Shown here: in pieces, positions 1 through 9,320 of the stretch
Position numbering within the stretch: position 1 is the stretch's first letter
Layout of the letters: each line of letters starts with the position of its first letter
Origin: Rhodoblastus sphagnicola
GTDB taxonomy: Bacteria > Pseudomonadota > Alphaproteobacteria > Rhizobiales > Beijerinckiaceae
Direction of reading: 5' to 3'
DNA length: 64,000 nt
Assembly (NCBI RefSeq): GCF_002937075.1
Contig: NZ_NHSJ01000126.1
Location: 1 to 64,000, forward strand
Made by a program: the position numbers and the translations under genes
Notes under the pieces: generated by a model
What the model was told of the DNA's origin: nothing
The model's input: the letters and a program-made list of their open reading frames with translations, nothing else
The model's database searches: none

Positions 1-1
1 C

Positions 2-2107
2 GCCCCCCCGCCCGTTTCCGTCGCCCCCACGCAAGCGCCGGCCGCGCCCGGCGGCGGCAAGCCCCTGACCGGCAAGGCCGAGGAGGGCTACCGCCAGACC
101 CGCGTCAATATGGGGCCTCTTGGCGACCGCAAGATTCTGGACCTGCCGTTCACCGTCCACACCATCCCCGAGGCCATCATCTCCAACCAGGACGTCCAGA
201 CATTTTCGGACCTGACGAAATACATGCCCTCGCTGCAACAGCAGGGGCATCCCGGACTGGAATTCGGGCCGCCGGTGATCCGGGGCCTCGTCGCCGACGA
301 TTCCTCCGCCAACACCCGCATCGACGGCATGAACGTGCGCGGCGACACGCAATTGCCGCTCAGCCTATACCAGAGTTTTGAAGTGCTCACGGGACCGTCC
401 GGCGCGCTCTACGGCTTTTCCTATCCCGCCGGCACGCTCAATGGAATTTTGAAGCGCCCGACGGACGCGCCGTCCCTGAACGCCACGCTCGGTTATGTCT
501 CCGCCGCGCGCCCGGAATTTTCGATCGATTTCGGCGGCCCGATCCCCGAAACCAACGGCGTGTTCGGTTATCGCCTCAACCTGCTGCACAGCGCCGGCGA
601 AAGTTTTGTCAGGGGCAGCGACGTCAAACGCGACGTGCTCGGCCTCGGCGTCGATGTGAATCTCACGCCGGACACCAAGATCGAACTGAACGCCAACCGC
701 TACCGCTATGAGCAGGACGGCCTGCCCGCCGGCTTCGCCTACAAGGGCGGTTCGGTCAAGCTGCCCTCCGCCCTCGACCCGACCAGGCAGGGCTATGGCC
801 AGAACTGGAGCGCGCTGATTGCGCAGACCGACATCACCGACGCGAAAATCATCCATCACTTCAACCAGGACTGGAGCATCGAGGCCGGCGTCCTGCGCCA
901 GGAGGCCGACCGCTGGTTCAACAACCGCCTGACCAACACGCTCAACGGAGACGGAACCTACAAGGCGACCTATTCCAGCAGCGCCAGCCTGACCACCGTG
1001 GTGAGCAATTTGTTCAACATCAACGGCGTCGTTTACACGGGACCGCTGAAGCATGAACTGGTGTTCGGAACCAATGGCTTCCGCACCGACGCCTATGCGC
1101 TGGCCTCGTCCGCGACCTATACGCTGGGTTCGAAAATTCCGCTCTACGACCCGCTGGTGTCCTCGACCTGGACGCCAAATTGGACGGGCGCGAAATATCT
1201 TTCCTCCACCATCACCCAGCAATCGCTGGTGCAGAACGACACCGTGCATTTCAATGAACAATGGTCGCTGCTGCTCGGCCTGAGCGAGAGTTGGCTGGAC
1301 AATGTCAACTATGGTTCGTCGAGCCCGCACGCGCAGCAAAGCGAGTTCACCAAGAACGCCGCGCTCAGCCCGGTGACGGCGTTGATGTTCAAGCCGCGCG
1401 AAGACATTTCGACCTATGTGTCCTGGTCCTCGTCGGTCCAGTCCAACACCGCGCCATCCACCGGCGTCAAAAACCCCAACGCGGCGCTGGAGCCGCTGCG
1501 CAGCTCGCAGGTCGAGGGCGGCGCCAAGGCGTCCTTGCGCGGCGTGGACCTGGGCGGCGCGATCTTCTATGTCGAGCGTCCCTATGCCGCCACCGACGCC
1601 GACGGATACTACAAGAACCTCGGCAATCAGGACGATCTCGGCGCCGAATTCACCGCGCGGGGCCAGGTGACTGAAGACCTGACCGTGGTCGGCGGCGTCA
1701 CCTGGCTCGACACGAAACTGGCGGACATGAAGGGCGTCAACGCCGTCAACAACGGCCATCAGGTCGTGGGCATCCCGCGCTGGCAGGGCAATTTGCTCGC
1801 CGAATACGCCGTGCCGGAATTGCGCGGCCTGACTGGCTTGCTCAACCTGCATGTCACCGGCAAGCGCGCGGCCGACGCCGAAAATTATTCCTCGGCGGCC
1901 GGCTATTTCACCACCGACATCGGCGCGCGCTACCAGTTCGATGTCGGCGCGCAAAAACTGACGCTTCGCTTCATGGTCGAGAACCTGTTCGACGAAAAAT
2001 ACTGGGCCTCGATCAACGGCGACATGAGCGGCTCAAATGGCGCGACCAACACCGCCTATCTCGGCGCGCCCCGCACCTACAAGGCTGCGCTGTCGGTGAA
2101 TTTCTGA
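2..2107 (+). CDS. TonB-dependent siderophore receptor, 5' end outside the window
   Basis: Outer-membrane gated channel that imports ferric siderophores using TonB energy. The frame is open to the left edge, so the start lies outside; the ATG at 110 is internal, because the frame before it reads a Pro/Ala/Gly-rich linker and then the start of the plug (EGYRQTRVNMGPLGDRKI). The plug follows, with a typical conserved stretch around VIRGL, TRIDGMNVRG and LTGPSGALYGF, then a long beta-barrel rich in alternating aromatic residues. The protein ends in Phe (ALSVNF), as expected for an outer-membrane barrel signal. It resembles the FhuA/FhuE/FpvA class; the ligand cannot be told. The downstream binding-protein gene starts 28 bases later, so the two were probably one iron-uptake operon, but the rest of that operon is damaged. 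Confidence 0.93.
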   Translation, partial: APPPVSVAPTQAPAAPGGGKPLTGKAEEGYRQTRVNMGPLGDRKILDLPFTVHTIPEAIISNQDVQTFSDLTKYMPSLQQQGHPGLEFGPPVIRGLVADDSSANTRIDGMNVRGDTQLPLSLYQSFEVLTGPSGALYGFSYPAGTLNGILKRPTDAPSLNATLGYVSAARPEFSIDFGGPIPETNGVFGYRLNLLHSAGESFVRGSDVKRDVLGLGVDVNLTPDTKIELNANRYRYEQDGLPAGFAYKGGSVKLPSALDPTRQGYGQNWSALIAQTDITDAKIIHHFNQDWSIEAGVLRQEADRWFNNRLTNTLNGDGTYKATYSSSASLTTVVSNLFNINGVVYTGPLKHELVFGTNGFRTDAYALASSATYTLGSKIPLYDPLVSSTWTPNWTGAKYLSSTITQQSLVQNDTVHFNEQWSLLLGLSESWLDNVNYGSSSPHAQQSEFTKNAALSPVTALMFKPREDISTYVSWSSSVQSNTAPSTGVKNPNAALEPLRSSQVEGGAKASLRGVDLGGAIFYVERPYAATDADGYYKNLGNQDDLGAEFTARGQVTEDLTVVGGVTWLDTKLADMKGVNAVNNGHQVVGIPRWQGNLLAEYAVPELRGLTGLLNLHVTGKRAADAENYSSAAGYFTTDIGARYQFDVGAQKLTLRFMVENLFDEKYWASINGDMSGSNGATNTAYLGAPRTYKAALSVNF

Positions 2108-2135
2108 CCGCCGCCGCACTGGAAAGACGCAAACC

Positions 2136-3125
2136 ATGATCCGCTCTCTTTGTCTCGCCCTCGTGCTCTGAGCCGGCCTCGACGCCCGCGCGGAAAACAT
2201 CGTCGATATGTCCGGCCGCACGGTTTCCGTCCCCGACGACATCAAATCCGTTTACGCCATGACCCACGCCATGCCGCTGGTCGTCGCGCTCGCGCCGGAC
2301 AAACTCGCCGGCTTCGCCAGCCCCCGCGCCATGAGCGCGGAAGCCCTGAAATTGCTGCCGCCGGAGCTTTCCAAACTGCCCAATCTCGGCGGCGGTCCCG
2401 ACGCCAATCTGGAAAAGCTCAAGGACATGAAGCTCGACATCGCGCTGGGATGGACCAGTCCGGGCGAAAGCTATCCGGCGCGCCAGATCGAGCGCATCGG
2501 CCTGCCGGTGGTCAACATCGAGGTCGACCGGCTGGATCAGTATCCCGCCACCTTCCGCTTCCTCGGCCGGCTGTTTCACCGCGAGGCGCTGGCGCGCGCG
2601 CTGGAGCGGGAAATGGCGGAGGTGCAGGCCGCCGTCGCGGAGGTGAAGACGCCAAAACCCCGCGTCTACTACGCGGAATCCCAGGATGGCCTGACCACCC
2701 AGTGCGACACGTCCGACCGCGTCGAGGTCATTGCGCGCGCAGGGGGCGTCAATGCCCTGCATTGCGAGCCCGGCGCGCCGTTCGCCGCCAATTATCCGCT
2801 CGGTCTCGAAAGGTTGCTCACGCTTGATCCCGATGTGATCGTCACCCGTTTCGCCGCAACGGCTGAAGCGATCCGCAAGGATCCGCGCTGGGCGCAACTC
2901 AAGGCGGTGCGGGCCGGCAAAATCTTCGCCGCCCCCAATGCGCCCTTCAACTGGTTCGACCGTCCGCCGTCCTTCCTGCGGGCGCTGGGCGCGCGCTGGC
3001 TGGCGGGCAAGCTACATCCGGAAGTGAAACTCGGCGATCTCCGCGCGGATGCGCGCGCCTTTTACGCGCTGTTTTTCGGCGTGACGCCCACCGACGCTGA
3101 TCTTGATCAACTGCTCGCGCCATGA
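2136..3125 (+). pseudogene. iron/siderophore ABC transporter substrate-binding protein, nonsense codon in signal peptide
   Basis: Homologue of class III periplasmic binding proteins (TroA/FepB/BtuF type). The natural start is ATG at 2136, preceded by a GAAAGA ribosome site. It reads MIRSLCLALVL, then TGA at 2169-2171, then AGLDARAENIVDMSGR in the same frame into the mature protein. The stop sits inside the hydrophobic core of the signal peptide. Everything after it is intact to the stop at 3125, including IDIALGWTSPG and the ALDPDVIV-like LTLDPDVIVTRF region. Restart at ATG 2208 would give about 305 residues without an export signal, so it could not serve a periplasmic transporter. A very recent mutation or a base-call error are both possible, but the downstream deletion of the transporter supports real decay. 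Confidence 0.8.
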
Positions 3126-3141
3126 CGGCGTTCGTGTCCGT

Positions 3142-3237
3142 TGCAGCGCCCGCGGGCGCATCTTCCACAATGGACCGCCCAGCGAAGTGCTGACGGATGA
3201 AACAATCCGCTTGCTCTACGGAATTGAATCCGTTTAA
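3142..3237 (+). pseudogene. C-terminal remnant of FecE/FepC-type ABC ATPase
   Basis: The frame ending at TAA 3235 reads GRIFHNGPPSEVLTDETI followed by RLLYGIESV. This is the typical tail of iron-siderophore ABC ATPases (GRI..GPP.EVLT...LR..YGIE). The binding-protein stop overlaps an ATG at 3122 (ATGA), where a permease gene would be expected to start, but that frame runs only about 20 codons. The simplest reading is one deletion that joined the first few permease codons to the last about 30 codons of the ATPase, with the junction near 3140-3155. Walker A, signature and Walker B motifs are all gone, so no ATPase function remains. Confidence 0.72.
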
Positions 3238-3416
3238 TAATTTGGCGCCGAGACTGTCCTGTTCATTCAAGACTCTTGATTGGGTCCGAGATCTCCTCGG
3301 AATTGGTCCGCACACCCCTTGATGCTGTGAGGAGTCCGCTTCCGAATGATCAGTTCATTGCCCAAGGCCAACGACCGGTCCGGATCTGTTCGCGATCATT
3401 CGTTGTCCGACCGCTC

Positions 3417-3497
3417 CCCGCCGCGCATCTGCGCTTTCTGGAAAAACTTCCTTTTTCATATAGATCGGGCGAATATGTCTTCGTCCACGCCGGTGTC
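3417..3497 (+). pseudogene. fragment of a Ser/Thr-type metallophosphatase
   Basis: A 27-codon stretch reads LPAAHLRFLEKLPFSYRSGE and then YVFVHAG, which matches the part of calcineurin-like bacterial protein phosphatases that carries the FVHAG metal-ligand histidine. The usual upstream metal motifs (GDxHG, GDxxDRG, GNHE) are absent, and the sequence on either side does not continue the family. It is a scrap, not a gene. It lies between the siderophore-transporter remnant and the ribbon-helix-helix gene, and marks 3.1-3.6 kb as a stretch where several genes have been lost. Confidence 0.6.
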
Positions 3498-3602
3498 GAT
3501 ACGGGGGCGCATGCGAGCGGCATCCTGACGGCTGTCGCCTTGAGCGCGGCGACAAACCCCAGGTTTCTGGCGACGTTAAGAACGTGAACTCAGGACGATC
3601 GG

Positions 3603-3872
3603 TCAATCGCCCTTTTGCTTGCGGTAACTATCAAAGGCGAGTTCCAACAACTTGCTGAGTTTCATGTCGTGGGCCGACGCATATGTCTTGAATTCACGCC
3701 TGAAATCCGCCGAAACCTTGAAATTGATCGGCTTTTTTTCCTCTTTGGCGGCCTTGTCCGCTTTAACCTTGACGGGCTTTGCAGGCTTCAGCGTCGCTAT
3801 TGTTTTCTTGCTCTCTTGAGCGGTCTTGTCGTTGTCCGCGACGGGCGGCTTTACGGCCTTCTTGGTCTTCAT
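3603..3872 (-). CDS. ribbon-helix-helix (CopG/ParG-like) DNA-binding protein
   Basis: An 89-residue protein with a Lys/Ala/Pro-rich flexible N-terminus (about residues 1-50) and a C-terminal ribbon-helix-helix fold. The DNA-contacting beta-strand is INFKVSADFRREF and the helices follow in KTYASAHDMKLSKLLELAFD. Start chosen at 3872 because it has a GGAAAGG site nine bases upstream; an upstream ATG at 3929 lacks one. Such proteins act as autorepressors, often as antitoxins or partition regulators. No toxin gene is adjacent on either side, so an antitoxin role is not supported here. Three tandem 8-bp repeats just upstream of the ribosome site are a good candidate for its own operator. Confidence 0.72.
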   Translation of the reverse strand: MKTKKAVKPPVADNDKTAQESKKTIATLKPAKPVKVKADKAAKEEKKPINFKVSADFRREFKTYASAHDMKLSKLLELAFDSYRKQKGD

Positions 3873-3892
3873 GTGAACTGCCTTTCCGGTTA

Positions 3893-3916
3893 TCGTGCTT
3901 TCGTGCTTTCGTGTTT
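3893..3916 (-). promoter_or_regulatory. three tandem 8-bp repeats, candidate RHH operator
   Basis: On the minus strand the sequence is AACACGAAAGCACGAAAGCA and so on: two exact units ACGAAAGC and a degenerate third, directly repeated with an 8-bp period. They lie about 20 bases upstream of the ribbon-helix-helix start and overlap a TATAAA box at 3915-3920. Ribbon-helix-helix repressors commonly bind tandem short repeats cooperatively, so autorepression is the natural inference. Confidence 0.45.
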
Positions 3917-3929
3917 TATATTCTAGCAC

Positions 3930-4414
3930 AAGAGCTGCCGCTTGGCATCTGGCTAGGCGCGATCATCGTAATGAAATCATTTCATGTTGGCGGAGGCCGC
4001 GTCGGGATGGCGCGTTCCTCATCCAAAAATTCAAGGAATGTTCGGGCGAGAGCTGAGCGCTCGGTCGGCGCCTCTATCGCGCCGGGTCGATCGAAAGCGT
4101 GTCGCCGGTCGCGTCAGGCGCCGTTGGCGTCCTCCGATCAATGGCGCGGCTGGATTTCAAAGGGTTTGCTCACTGCAGCATGATCCCGTCGATCAGCTTC
4201 GCCAATTCGGGCCGCAGTCTCGCGACTTGGACGGGCTGGTTGCGCCTGCGCCCGCAAGCGCCAATGTCCCGCCGCCGATCAACAGAGTCCGTGGTGTCGT
4301 CACGTGAGCCGCCTGGCGTTGCCGAGGCCGCCCCCGCGGAGGATTTGCATCCTTGGCTCGTCCGGAACATTTCCCATACGCATCGAAACTTTGTGCCCAA
4401 GGCGCTCGCCGCCA
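3930..4414. other. gene-poor stretch, no supported gene
   Basis: About 480 bases between the ribbon-helix-helix gene and the dikinase-like gene. All frames are short. One minus-strand frame starting GTG at 4303 reads a signal-peptide-like VTTPRTLLIGGGTLALAGAG but stops at 4193 without a recognisable mature domain; an overlapping frame reads ARLRPELAKLIDGIM. This could be the frameshifted remnant of a small exported protein, but I cannot name it. Confidence 0.35.
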
Positions 4415-5995
4415 TTAGGCCGCTGCAACGCGCCAGCCCGCGATGGCGGCCAGAGCCTTGTCCGGGCGTTCGGTCAGCGGCGCGAGGCGGCCGGCATAGA
4501 CAGCGCCGGAATTGCCGTCGAGGGAAATGAAGTCACCCTCATTGATGAGCGTTCCACCGATCCGGCATTGACGGCGGCTGATGTCGATGTCCAGACCGGG
4601 ACAGGCGACAAGGCAAACCTTGCCGAGTTGACGCGCCACGACCGCCGCATGAGAGGTGCGCCCGCCCGACGCGGTGAGGATGCCCGCCGCGAGCGCCATG
4701 CCCTCGATGTCCGTGGTCGCCGTGTCGCGCCGCACCAGGATTGTCGGACCTGCCGCCGACAGGCGTTTGACCGCATCGGAATCAAGCGCGACGGCGCCGC
4801 TGGCGACGCCCATGCAGGCGGCCAGGGCAATCGCCAGCGGCGGCGGCGGCGATTCCGCGAAGCGGGTGCGGGCGATGGCGTCGAGATCGATCTCCCCGAT
4901 CTGTTTGAGCGCCTCGGACGGCGTGGTCAGGCCTTCTTCGACCATGTCCACGGCGATGTTCAGCGCCGCCCAGTCGGTGCGCTTGGCGCGCCGGGTCTGA
5001 AGCAGGAACAGCGTTCCCGACTGCACCGTGAACTCGAAATCCTGCGCATCGCCAAACAGCGCCTCCAACTCGTGGCAGATGCCGTTAAGCCGCGCCCAGA
5101 TGGCCGGGAGCGCGATCGGCAGGCGGTCGTTGTCGCTCAGTTTTTGCCGCCCGGCGACAATGTCCTCGCCCTGGCCGTCAAATTGAAAGTCATAATAAAA
5201 CGCCTTGGCGCCGGTCGCCGGGTTGCGGGTGAAACCGACGCCGGCGCCGGAGGCGCCGCCGGCATTGCCGAACACCATGGCCTGCACCGTCACCGCCGTG
5301 CCGCCCTCGTCGCTGATGCCGTTCAAGCGGCGATAGCTGACGGCCTTGGGCGCGTCCCAGGACCGAAACACAGCCAATGCGGCGCTGGCGAGCTGGTCCC
5401 ACGGGTCGTCAGGAAAAGCCTTGCCCGTCAAGGTCCGGTAACAGTCCAGCATGGCGAGGGTCAGCTGCTTCAGGCTGCGGTGATCGAGTTCGCGCGCGGC
5501 GTCGCTCTCGGTTCGCGCCAGTTCCGCCGTCAAAAGCGCGTCGAAGGGCGCTGTCGGCAAGTCCGCCACCACCTCGGCATAGCCCTGGATGAGGCGGCGA
5601 TAGCTGTCCCAGGCGAGGCGCGGATTGCCCGTCAGCCGGATCAGCGCCTCCACCGTCGCCGCGTTCAGGCCGACGTCAAGAACCGTCTCCATCATGCCGG
5701 GCATGGACACGGCGGCGCCCGAGCGCACGGAGACCAGGAGGGGCCGTCGCGTCGCGCCGAATTTTTGGCCGGTCGCGGCCTCGATCCGCGCGACGCCCTG
5801 CGCCAGCGTCCGCCGCAACGACGTTTCTCCGGAGGGGTCCAAGCGGCGGCCCCAGTTCGTCGGCAACACGAAGGCGGGCGGCGCGGGAAGCCCCGCCTTG
5901 GCGAGACGCATCAGGTTCCAGGCCTTGTTGCCCACTTCCCCGGCGCCGCCCTCCGCCAGCGGCGCGCCCGCAAGAATCGGGTAGAAATCAGCCAT
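4415..5995 (-). CDS. pyruvate phosphate dikinase-like protein without the PEP/pyruvate barrel
   Basis: A 526-residue protein matching the N-terminal part of pyruvate phosphate dikinase. It has the ATP-grasp nucleotide domain (VSVRSGAAVSMPGMMETVLD near residue 110, then FDGQGEDIVAG and LFLLQTRRAKRT) followed by the swivelling phosphohistidine domain with GGRTSHAAVVAR, catalytic His about residue 449. It ends about 75 residues after that His. The C-terminal TIM barrel that binds pyruvate/PEP, roughly 350 residues in full-length enzymes, is absent, and no barrel sequence follows. It should be able to accept phosphate from ATP onto His but cannot itself make PEP. Its start overlaps the upstream DUF47-like gene by 8 bases, so the two are co-translated. 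The partner that receives the phosphate is unknown. Confidence 0.85.
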   Translation of the reverse strand: MADFYPILAGAPLAEGGAGEVGNKAWNLMRLAKAGLPAPPAFVLPTNWGRRLDPSGETSLRRTLAQGVARIEAATGQKFGATRRPLLVSVRSGAAVSMPGMMETVLDVGLNAATVEALIRLTGNPRLAWDSYRRLIQGYAEVVADLPTAPFDALLTAELARTESDAARELDHRSLKQLTLAMLDCYRTLTGKAFPDDPWDQLASAALAVFRSWDAPKAVSYRRLNGISDEGGTAVTVQAMVFGNAGGASGAGVGFTRNPATGAKAFYYDFQFDGQGEDIVAGRQKLSDNDRLPIALPAIWARLNGICHELEALFGDAQDFEFTVQSGTLFLLQTRRAKRTDWAALNIAVDMVEEGLTTPSEALKQIGEIDLDAIARTRFAESPPPPLAIALAACMGVASGAVALDSDAVKRLSAAGPTILVRRDTATTDIEGMALAAGILTASGGRTSHAAVVARQLGKVCLVACPGLDIDISRRQCRIGGTLINEGDFISLDGNSGAVYAGRLAPLTERPDKALAAIAGWRVAAA

Positions 5996-7910
5996 TGATC
6001 ACATCCTCGAGCATATGTTCATGCAGGATCAGGCTGGCGCGTTGCAGCGCATCGGAAGCGTTTTCGAGCCGATCGCCGATCGCGGTGAAGAGGTGCAACT
6101 GGCGAAAATCTTCGGCATGTCGAACCGCGCTGGCGGTCAGCGCGCGCTGGGCGTCGTCGGCCTCGTGCTCCAAGGCGGCGATGCGGTCGATCGCGGTCAG
6201 GAAATCCTGCGTCTCGGCGCCGCTGGCGGCGCGGCCGATCTGGCTCGCGTGGCCGAGCGCCTTGATCCATTCCTGCGCCGCCTCCACCAGTTGATCGGCG
6301 AGACCCTGCAAGACAGCGAGCGGCTTGCCCTTGAGCGCGTCGAAGCCCATCAGCGCGACCGCGTCCTCCAACTCGTCGGCCGCATCGTCCGCCGTCCGCA
6401 CCACTTGCAGAAACACTGCATAATCAGGACGCCGGGCGACGGACGCGCGCGTTTCGATCACCAGCCGGTCGGCGTCATGCTCGAAGGCGCGGGCGCGCCG
6501 CGCGCATTTCTCGGCATGTTTCCCGTCGTCCCCCGGATCGGCCCGCAACGCATCGCGCGCAAGGCTGGCGAGTTCGAAGATCAGGCCCGCGTGATCTTGG
6601 GCGACGCGGAGCAACTGCCGCTGCTCATTGCTGAAATGGGCCGCGAGCGCCACCTTGATGCGGTCGCGCAGCAACGCGGCCGACTCGTCCGAAAGCAGCC
6701 CCTGCGTCGCCGTCTTGAACACAAAGCGCAGGAAATCGAGGGTCTCGGCATCGCCGAGCACGTCGCAGAGCCGGTCGCCGAAATGCATCGACAATCCCGC
6801 GACGGCCTCGATGTTCTGATTGACCAGCCGGGCGCCGCCGAGCTCCAGAAAGCCGCGATGCCCGATCTCGGCTTCCGCCGCCCAGCTCAACAGGACGAGC
6901 CGATCCGCGCCGCGTAAAAATCCGCGCAATTGTTTGCGCGCATGGTTCCAGTCGATCAGGAACACCAGGCGCGAGCCCAGGAAGGTGAGGTAATCGCGGG
7001 CCGCCGCATCATCCGCCGCCTCAAGCCGGCCTGTGGCGAGATAAAACGCCGAGCCGGCGGACAGCGCGTCCGTGCGCTGCTTTTCCCATATGACCTTGAA
7101 GGGCTTGAGCATGTCCTGAAAAAAGCCGAGCCGCTCGACATGCACATCGGTATAGGTCACGGCGACGGCCAAGCCCCCGGCTTGCAAGCCCTCGACATGA
7201 ATGACGATCACATGCGCGTCGGTCGTGCCGATGTCGTTTTGAATGATCAGACGGTTTCCGACGCGCGTCGCCGTGGTGGCGAGGCCGGGATGGTTGAATT
7301 TCAGTCGCGCGGTGCGGTCGATCCCGGCCATGAAGGCGCGCACCAGCGGGCGGTCCGCCTCGGCCAGATTATAGGCGGCGGCGCCATCCAATGTTTCCTC
7401 GGCCAGTTCCGCTTGCATCGCGTTGAGCCGCTTGTGCAGATCCATCACCAGCCGATGCAGGCTGTCGGGACCGTCATGCCCGGCCGCCATCATGGCGGAT
7501 AGGACGGCGGGATCGACGAGGTCGTCCTGCGTCCCCGGCATGACCGCCAGCAAACCCTCCAGCCGCGATCCGAATGCGTCGGACTTCGCGCCGCCGACCG
7601 GCGCGGCCATGAGACGCATATCGGCGGTGATGCGGGCCAAAATGTTTCGGGCGCCCTGCACGCGGCATTTCGCCCCGACTTTTCGCGCCGAGGCGACGGC
7701 GCCGTCGAGGTCGGGATCGTCGATGCCGCAGGCGTTGCGCTCCCGCTTCAGCGTCGCCGCCGGATGCTCCGGATGCTCGGCGTGGTCCAAAGCCATTTGC
7801 AGCAGGGAGAAGAGATATTTCACCCGGTCATTGGCGGCGAGCGCGGCGTTGAGCGCCGCGGCGGGCTGCAATTCGCGCTCGCCGAGCGCGGCCAGAATCT
7901 GGGCCTTCAT
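5988..7910 (-). CDS. PhoU/DUF47-like protein with long uncharacterised N-terminus
   Basis: A 640-residue protein. The C-terminal about 220 residues look like the all-helical DUF47/PhoU fold, with repeated acidic metal-site motifs (FEHDADRLV, DDAADELEDA, LEHEADDAQ, GDRLENASDAL). The first about 400 residues are not a family I recognise; they include a beta-rich stretch (NRLIIQNDIGTTDAHVIVIH) and a conserved-looking LAVAVTYTDVHVERLGFF. Start taken at ATG 7910, which has an AGGGAAC site; the frame is open further upstream but reads poor sequence. PhoU-family proteins regulate phosphate uptake. The gene sits about 100 bases downstream of a pstB-like gene and overlaps the dikinase-like gene, which points to one phosphate-linked unit. 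No signal peptide or membrane segment is seen. Confidence 0.75.
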   Translation of the reverse strand: MKAQILAALGERELQPAAALNAALAANDRVKYLFSLLQMALDHAEHPEHPAATLKRERNACGIDDPDLDGAVASARKVGAKCRVQGARNILARITADMRLMAAPVGGAKSDAFGSRLEGLLAVMPGTQDDLVDPAVLSAMMAAGHDGPDSLHRLVMDLHKRLNAMQAELAEETLDGAAAYNLAEADRPLVRAFMAGIDRTARLKFNHPGLATTATRVGNRLIIQNDIGTTDAHVIVIHVEGLQAGGLAVAVTYTDVHVERLGFFQDMLKPFKVIWEKQRTDALSAGSAFYLATGRLEAADDAAARDYLTFLGSRLVFLIDWNHARKQLRGFLRGADRLVLLSWAAEAEIGHRGFLELGGARLVNQNIEAVAGLSMHFGDRLCDVLGDAETLDFLRFVFKTATQGLLSDESAALLRDRIKVALAAHFSNEQRQLLRVAQDHAGLIFELASLARDALRADPGDDGKHAEKCARRARAFEHDADRLVIETRASVARRPDYAVFLQVVRTADDAADELEDAVALMGFDALKGKPLAVLQGLADQLVEAAQEWIKALGHASQIGRAASGAETQDFLTAIDRIAALEHEADDAQRALTASAVRHAEDFRQLHLFTAIGDRLENASDALQRASLILHEHMLEDVING

Positions 7911-8013
7911 CGGCGTTCCCTGTGTTGCATGAAACCTGTTTGGCCTGGGCGACCAGGACATAAAGCCGCATGTGCGAAACGCGCCGCAAAACCGGCGGTT
8001 CTCCGCGCCGTCC

Positions 8014-8877
8014 TCAGCCGAACTTTCCCGCGAAATAATTCCTTGTGCGTTCCCGCAAGGGAGCCTCGAACATCTGCGCCGTCGGACCCGACTCGACCAT
8101 TTCACCGAGATAGAAAAACGCCACCTCATCGGCGCAGCGCCGCGCCTGCTCCATATTGTGGGTCACGATCAGGATAGTGACGTTCTGTTTCAAATCTGCG
8201 ATCAGCATTTCGATTTTTAGCGAGCTCAGCGGATCGAGCGCGCTGGTCGGCTCATCGAGCAGGATCACCTCCGGCCGCGCCGCAAGCGCGCGGGCGATGC
8301 AAAGACGTTGCTGCTGGCCGATCGAAATGGAGTTGGCTTGCTCCGACAACCTGTCCTTGACTTCATTCCACAGCGCGGCGCGCAAAAGGGTTTCCTGAAC
8401 GCGCTCATCCATTTCGCCCTCGGACAGATTTTCGAGGAAACGCGGACCGAAGGCGACATTGTCATAGATCGACATCGGAAACGGCGTCGGCTCCTGGAAC
8501 ACCATGCCAATGCGCCAGCGCAGCAGGTTCAAGTCGACATCCGGGCCGAGGATGTCGCAACCGTCCATCTCCACCTCGCCGGTGGCGCGCTCGTTTGGAT
8601 ACATGTCGTACATGCGGTTAAGAACCCGCAGCAAGGTCGACTTGCCGCAGCCCGAGGGTCCGATCAGGGCGGTCGCCCGCTTTGCCGGCGCCTTCAGGGT
8701 CACGCCCCTCAACGCCTGGGTTTCGCCGTAAAAGAAATCGAGGTTTGTGATCTGGATCGCGCCGCATTGCTCAATGGCGCCGGCTTGCGCCCGGGAACTT
8801 GGTTTAGCGGCATAGCCGGAAGATGCGGGGGGCGACGCTCCGGGATTCGCAGCGCCTTGGCCGACTGCATTGCTCAT
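8014..8877 (-). CDS. pstB: phosphate ABC transporter ATP-binding protein (PstB-like), variant signature motif
   Basis: A 287-residue ATPase matching PstB throughout: Walker A GPSGCGKST (residues 73-81), MVFQEPTPFPMSIYDNVAFG, Walker B and D-loop [12 protein letters not shown], and switch THNMEQA. The signature normally read LSGGQQQRL is here ISIGQQQRL, so the first Gly of the motif is Ile. That position contacts the nucleotide across the dimer, so activity may be altered. The N-terminus has about 35 extra Ala/Ser/Pro-rich residues before the ABC fold. No pstS, pstC, pstA or phoU gene lies in the window; the next gene downstream is the DUF47-like protein. It may be an orphan that works with those two partners, or serve permeases encoded elsewhere. 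Confidence 0.85.
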   Translation of the reverse strand: MSNAVGQGAANPGASPPASSGYAAKPSSRAQAGAIEQCGAIQITNLDFFYGETQALRGVTLKAPAKRATALIGPSGCGKSTLLRVLNRMYDMYPNERATGEVEMDGCDILGPDVDLNLLRWRIGMVFQEPTPFPMSIYDNVAFGPRFLENLSEGEMDERVQETLLRAALWNEVKDRLSEQANSISIGQQQRLCIARALAARPEVILLDEPTSALDPLSSLKIEMLIADLKQNVTILIVTHNMEQARRCADEVAFFYLGEMVESGPTAQMFEAPLRERTRNYFAGKFG

Positions 8878-9320
8878 GTCTGTCGTGAACCTTTTGCCGG
8901 AAGGACGAAGACAACACGCGGATCCGCATTACGCCGATTGAATCATTCGTCTCTCGCGATCGTCTCTCGCGAGAGTCCATTTCGAGAACCAGCATAGACC
9001 GCGACGTTTCAGGAGACAGACTCGGAATGTACTCAGCAATGCCCGGACCTGGCGCATTCAATCAATGACCTGAAGCGGGGCAGTAAGAGAAGTTACGGAC
9101 GTTTTTGCCGGTAGTTTCAGAAATGAAATATTTATTATAATTGCAAAACAAGTCGTTATGTCTCTATTTTCATTCCCTTCCGATATGTCCTGACAGCGTG
9201 ACCGACAGGGCGCGGGGGGACGATATGCACAAAACTTGATCATAATTTTGATTGCCTGCAAAGCTGCCATTGCGTAAACTGAATCCTTGATGACGCTTTC
9301 GGTTCCGTCATAGGTGTCTC
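8878..9320. other. AT-richer intergenic region upstream of pstB-like gene
   Basis: About 440 bases with no supported gene. It is divergent space between the minus-strand pstB-like gene and the plus-strand small gene at 9321. It contains the palindrome CTCTCGCGAGAG (8964-8975) beside a partial direct repeat of CGTCTCTCGCGA, and an imperfect Pho-box-like pair at 9189-9208. The 9110-9270 stretch is clearly richer in A+T than its surroundings and probably holds promoters. Confidence 0.5.
9189..9208 (-). promoter_or_regulatory. imperfect Pho-box-like direct repeat
   Basis: On the minus strand the site reads CTGTCGGTCACGCTGTCAGG. Two CTGTC half-sites are separated by 12 bases; the consensus Pho box has CTGTCAT repeats spaced by 11. 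It points toward the pstB-like gene, about 310 bases upstream of its start. The one-base spacing error makes PhoB binding uncertain. Confidence 0.25.

Follow-up and report, generated by a model that had tools for sequence, protein, structure and literature searches.

A siderophore-uptake operon of Rhodoblastus sphagnicola, very probably in early decay after an internal deletion of its inner-membrane transporter

What has become of a siderophore-uptake operon in which the genes for a TonB-dependent receptor and a periplasmic binding protein (SBP) are followed by mere remnants of the permease and ATPase genes? The question is raised by the beginning of a 64,000-nucleotide stretch of Rhodoblastus sphagnicola DNA (hereafter the window; positions 1 to 64,000 of contig NZ_NHSJ01000126.1, here C126). 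A sequence-only reading of this DNA had proposed that an internal deletion joined the start of the permease gene to the end of the ATPase gene. That interpretation is supported overall, with its deletion size, reading frame and codon distance corrected and with the addition of a TGA codon in the SBP gene (2169–2171) that it had missed. We are highly confident that the locus is a siderophore-uptake operon in early decay, its inner-membrane transporter lost to an internal deletion and its SBP gene interrupted by a stop codon.

The order receptor, SBP, permease and ATPase is that of the siderophore-uptake operon in two sister genomes, G005 and G008, where the four genes are consecutive with ends that overlap or nearly do so. 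With the window SBP (2208–3122) as the query, matches were obtained in 18 of 60 genomes, the window's own included; the clear orthologues were those of the same genus at G005:C27 (89% identity) and G008:C47 (88%), and the remaining matches were at 43% or less. A scan of named genomes returned four loci, in Rhodoblastus acidophilus MO (88%), in R. acidophilus DSM 137 (87%) and two distant ones (34% and 31%). Alignment of window positions 1–9000 gave a single block with each sister, covering bases 49–3150 against G005 (83.0% of 3,119 columns) and bases 49–3159 against G008 (84.0% of 3,124 columns), after which the alignment ends. This comparison, suggested beforehand as the way to see the exact junction, thus revealed a complete operon in both sisters, from which the window departs between codon 10 of the permease gene and a 27-codon tail of the ATPase gene. 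The contig of the G008 operon also holds a 134-aa open frame (L029, G008:C47:233862-234242) that matches residues 176–303 alone of the SBP query (40%) and is perhaps another decayed copy.

The spacing between the SBP and the ATPase tail was determined wherever an SBP match was followed within 4 kb by a tail match on the same strand, which gave ten places in relatives. At eight of them the end of the SBP match and the start of the tail match lie 1,678–1,718 bases apart, compared with 29 in the window: 1,678 at both G006:C1 and G002:C28, 1,690 at G004:C65, 1,694 at G018:C1, 1,699 at G008:C47, 1,702 at G005:C27, 1,705 at G013:C12 and 1,718 at G013:C3. The other two are G019:C1 (3,791) and G021:C29 (1,985), where the SBP match ends 91 residues early. 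Further SBP matches had no tail match nearby, for example at G001:C24, G008:C56 (two) and G005:C27:67707, and the tail search covered some, not all, of the genomes of the SBP search. Relatives in which the ATPase gene never followed, which the sequence-only reading had named as an observation that would count against it, were not found.

In the window, the permease gene is reduced to its first 10 codons (3122–3151, forward strand), beginning with an ATG at 3122 that shares bases with the SBP stop codon (3123–3125), as had been noted before. These codons read MTAFVSVAAP, compared with MTASVSMAAP in G005, and match G005 at 20 of 30 bases and G008 at 21 of 30. Beyond the junction (3151–3154, forward strand), at which ~1.67 kb are absent, there follow 27 C-terminal codons and the stop codon of an ATPase gene (3154–3237, forward strand). 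From the permease ATG to the start of the ATPase segment at 3154 there are 32 bases in the window, compared with 1,705 in G005 and 1,702 in G008, and these coordinates give a loss of ~1,673 bp relative to G005 and ~1,670 bp relative to G008. The loss itself was therefore correctly recognised from the letters, but its size had been put at about 2 kb, and the ATPase segment had been placed about 30 codons after the ATG, where the distance is really 32 bases, or 10 codons. The two remnants adjoin, but a fused protein is not expected, because the permease start and the ATPase tail are read in different frames: translation from the permease ATG would meet a TGA (3191–3193) after 23 codons, and the tail is listed in an ORF of its own with a TTG start (3103–3237). 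The operon consequently lacks a functional permease, of which 10 codons remain, and a functional ATPase, of which the 27 remaining C-terminal codons lie beyond the region where the sister ATPases have their Walker and signature motifs. In the mechanism that we propose, a deletion of ~1.67 kb would have taken the permease gene beyond codon 10 and all of the ATPase gene except these 27 codons, and a single event would be the simplest reading of the coordinates.

The junction falls in the middle of a perfect 14-bp palindrome (GCGCCCGCGGGCGC, 3146–3159); such palindromes number 10 in the 64 kb. Its halves look partly ancestral, both sisters having GCGCC at the start of the permease gene and G005 having GGGCG in its ATPase tail, so that the ends of the deletion may have carried short inverted repeats. 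A position on the breakpoint by chance is unlikely, but the palindrome was noticed after the fact, and we keep it as a remark and not as the mechanism of the deletion.

The ATPase tail most likely belongs to the operon's own ATPase. It reads GRIFHNGPPSEVLTDETIRLLYGIES in the window and GRIACDGPPGEVLTPHTIRRLYGIDP in G005, and the sister ATPases extend past its end by 9 (G005) and 4 (G008) residues. When the 78 bases of the tail were placed without gaps on the operon strand, the best position was the ATPase C-terminus in both sisters, with 53 of 78 bases matching in 20 kb of G005 (next best 38) and 47 of 78 in 18 kb of G008 (next best 39); on the opposite strand, tried in G005 alone, the best value was 36 of 78. 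The tails of the two sisters match each other at 55 of 78 bases, compared with 53 of 78 between the window and G005, and with sister tails equally divergent, a moderate identity is what would be expected of an orthologous tail. The G005 ATPase as the query found the window tail (3127–3240) at an E-value of 1.5e-4, one of 78 matches in the genome. A profile of four ATPase ends, including that of the G005 orthologue (usable frames came from 4 of 19 loci), was run against 1,371 stop-to-stop ORFs and gave the tail ORF an E-value of 1.1e-8, with five ABC ATPases of the window above it and the next ORF below it at E 1.9. The C-terminal segment of a FecE-type ATPase that had been recognised by eye after the permease start, ending at 3237, is thus borne out, as is its similarity to ATPase C-termini in a profile search. 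The labels FecE-type and BtuC/FecCD-type derive from NCBIfam matches of the sister's proteins that lie below the equivalog cut-offs, and Pfam returned no family for the 44-aa tail ORF at E-values up to 10.

Could the tail instead come from a different ATPase, if a rearrangement had placed the end of some other transporter gene behind the truncated operon? A search with the 31-residue tail across 298 genomes of the family bears on this reading from both sides. The best match other than the window itself was the C-terminus of the orthologous ATPase of G005 (E 1.4e-5, 65%), but the best match in another genus (G288) scored almost as well (E 2.5e-5), and the G008 orthologue (E 6.5e-4) came behind several tails of other genera; some match at E-values up to 0.1 was found in 109 of the 298 genomes. 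Since tails from other genera score nearly like that of G005, the source of the tail is fixed more by its place than by its sequence, and its order and orientation are those expected for the end of the operon's own ATPase. In its own genome, the sole place found at E-values up to 0.1 was the window tail itself, so that the host paralogues offered no candidate source. The composition of the tail (GC 55%, GC3 65%) is low for genes of this genome, which could favour a foreign source; among 26-codon stretches of the SBP gene, 0.4% have a GC content as low and 5.4% a GC3 as low. We rejected composition as an indication of origin, because single stretches of neighbouring genes also reach such values. 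Over the stretches compared, each of the three genomes has different flanks outside the operon, which is compatible with a rearrangement. On balance, we consider a tail of different origin very unlikely and retain the operon's own ATPase as its source.

Beyond the operon, the side of the window was found to share no flanks with the sister stretches, and these share none with each other, with the exception of two blocks. One, of ~0.9 kb, precedes the receptor in the window's genome (G000:C133) and follows the ATPase in G005; the other is a match of repeated genes (~1.1 kb, 71%) between the first operon of G008 and a second one of G005. As the flanks of the sisters differ from those of the window over the stretches compared, synteny gives no anchor for the far side of the junction. 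In G005, just past the end of the ATPase gene (10085), L031:10119-10268 (reverse strand) encodes the first ~50 residues of a response-regulator gene, identified by eye, and then diverges; a full-length relative of 224 aa is present in G000:C133, ~7.5 kb from the receptor. The DNA downstream of the junction (3100–4300) had no match among plasmid records and matched 21 of 99 family genomes at E-values up to 0.01, the window itself included. One of these matches was clear, that of the RHH-like gene at G005:C35 (E 7.3e-23), and the others were short (E 2.6e-4 or more). The GC content of positions 3240–4400 is 0.57, compared with 0.63–0.68 for the receptor, SBP and dikinase genes.

Several smaller features occupy this downstream region. 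A remnant at 3348–3584 (forward strand), which we take to be phosphatase-like from its motifs, consists of two parts that match one 291-aa open frame at G000:C57:122539-122889 (64% and 71%); ~140 bases are skipped between the parts, which seems to reflect a second internal deletion, and Pfam found no family in the corresponding ORF (3276–3587). A small ORF on the reverse strand (3603–3929) weakly matches the ribbon-helix-helix model RHH_10, at 17.8 bits where the cut-off is 27, and related DNA occurs at G005:C35 (77%), off the operon contig, and at G001:C11 (80%). Three genes stand in a row at 4415–8877 (reverse strand): the first encodes a pyruvate phosphate dikinase that is short (526 aa), and the other two, named by eye, are a PhoU-like gene and one for a PstB-like ATPase. 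Six of ten further genomes from the genus contain long matches of ~65% to the dikinase part, and the region 4300–8000 (dikinase and PhoU-like) has matches in all 10 genus genomes, in pieces of 64–96%, those of G005 and G008 lying off the operon contigs. We set these matches aside as evidence on the junction, on which they have no bearing.

The SBP gene carries a lesion of its own. Read from the ATG at 2136 (Peripla_BP_2, 2136–3125, forward strand), it meets an in-frame TGA at codon 12 (2169–2171), within the signal peptide, which is open in both sisters, and is therefore a pseudogene from which no exported periplasmic binding protein is expected. The next in-frame ATG is at 2208, from which the frame is open to 3122; its product would be without an export signal. 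The protein scores above the Pfam cut-off, and the mature part is 88.8% identical to that of G005 and 88.5% to that of G008. The export signal would thus have been removed by a nonsense codon separate from the deletion.

The receptor gene (2–2107, forward strand) is open and intact, and its 5′ end lies on another contig of the same genome. The start of the window, which is also the start of the contig, cuts the gene, and contig C133 ends with the missing first codons. An exact overlap of 13 bases, within a C-rich part of the gene, allows the two contigs to be ordered and joined in frame (window position 1 and L077:1-420), giving a receptor of 754 aa without internal stops. The earlier statement that the receptor is intact therefore applies to this joined frame and not to the copy in the window, which is cut. 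The product contains the plug and barrel of Pfam, exceeds the cut-off of the siderophore receptor model TIGR01783 (282.9 bits, cut-off 223.5) and is 80% identical to that of G005 and 86% to that of G008 over 701 codons.

As a further reading, the permease and ATPase genes might be present in the organism and have been dropped or mis-joined in the one assembly of the window's strain on which the structural evidence is based. The draft comprises 141 contigs, a second contig break falls within the receptor gene of this same operon, and the junction carries the 14-bp palindrome. Against such an artefact, no orthologue of the lost permease or ATPase was found on any contig of the assembly, which is 99.26% complete, and window positions 3100–4300 have one match in their own genome, which is themselves. 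The SBP gene in addition carries a separate lesion, the TGA. We regard an assembly error as extremely unlikely and a genuine deletion as the better account.

The closest other permease of the genome is 60% identical to that of G005 and the closest other ATPase 56%, both on contig C36, whereas the sisters share 91% identity in the permease and 79% in the ATPase, which identifies the C36 genes as paralogues. They belong to one of three further sets of adjoining SBP, permease and ATPase genes, on C36, C9 and C131, of which that on C36 is the nearest. These sets could offer the receptor another use, in which it would bring its ligand into the periplasm and uptake would be completed by a different SBP, permease and ATPase, a reading compatible with the deletion. 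Such a role would fit a receptor whose frame is intact and constrained on the window's lineage, but a recent lesion explains this constraint equally well, and the paralogous SBPs are 29–38% identical to that of the window, which makes a shared specificity doubtful. We therefore consider retention of the receptor for use possible but rather unlikely. It is slightly more doubtful still that the receptor has been kept under selection since the transporter was lost, feeding a paralogous importer such as the C36 set in an orphan state soon after the deletion.

The constraint was assessed by a plain count of codon changes in the three genomes, without a likelihood model. Pairwise dN/dS was 0.20–0.27 for the receptor (701 codons) and 0.11–0.18 for the mature SBP (304 codons). 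On the branch of the window, the ratio of nonsynonymous to synonymous changes was 29:62 in the receptor and 6.5:37.5 in the SBP, in both genes the lowest of the three branches; these branch comparisons are weak, as Fisher tests of this branch against the pooled other two had p-values of 0.047 for the receptor and 0.06 or 0.10, depending on rounding, for the SBP. Neither gene shows any sign of relaxed constraint on the window's lineage. As amino-acid changes are not in excess, the damage is probably recent, and these results suggest lesions that are recent relative to the divergence of these species, or else continued use of the remaining genes. Recent lesions are the simpler of the two readings, because the export signal of the SBP is broken. 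Decay would thus have only begun, with the receptor frame open and a low share of amino-acid changes in the receptor and the SBP, and the broken operon would by itself no longer be able to move a ligand across the inner membrane. Both the recency of the damage and this loss of function are deduced from the gene sequences.

The locus resembles a TonB-dependent siderophore-uptake operon with a PF01497 binding protein and an importer of the BtuCD/FecCDE type in its gene order, shared with the sisters, and in a receptor and an SBP that exceed the TIGR01783 and Pfam cut-offs, respectively. It differs from a functional operon of this kind in its permease and ATPase remnants and in the stop codon within the SBP signal peptide. 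No equivalog model at its cut-off indicated the identity of the ligand for the receptor or the SBP. The formation of pseudogenes by internal deletion is ordinary gene decay in bacteria. The present operon agrees with it in that both ends of the deletion lie within genes, remnants flank the lost stretch, a neighbouring gene bears a second lesion and the orthologues in close relatives are intact. Nothing essential differs, and the receptor frame here is still open. The locus is accordingly a case of ordinary decay by a known type of event, and no new mechanism is indicated. In literature listings and the openings of abstracts, neither this operon nor orphan receptors of Rhodoblastus were seen to be treated. 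The operon provides a clean case of the breakage of an iron-uptake operon, in which both ends of the deletion and a second lesion are visible and intact copies exist in two sister genomes, and it illustrates that an annotated intact TonB receptor does not imply a working uptake route.
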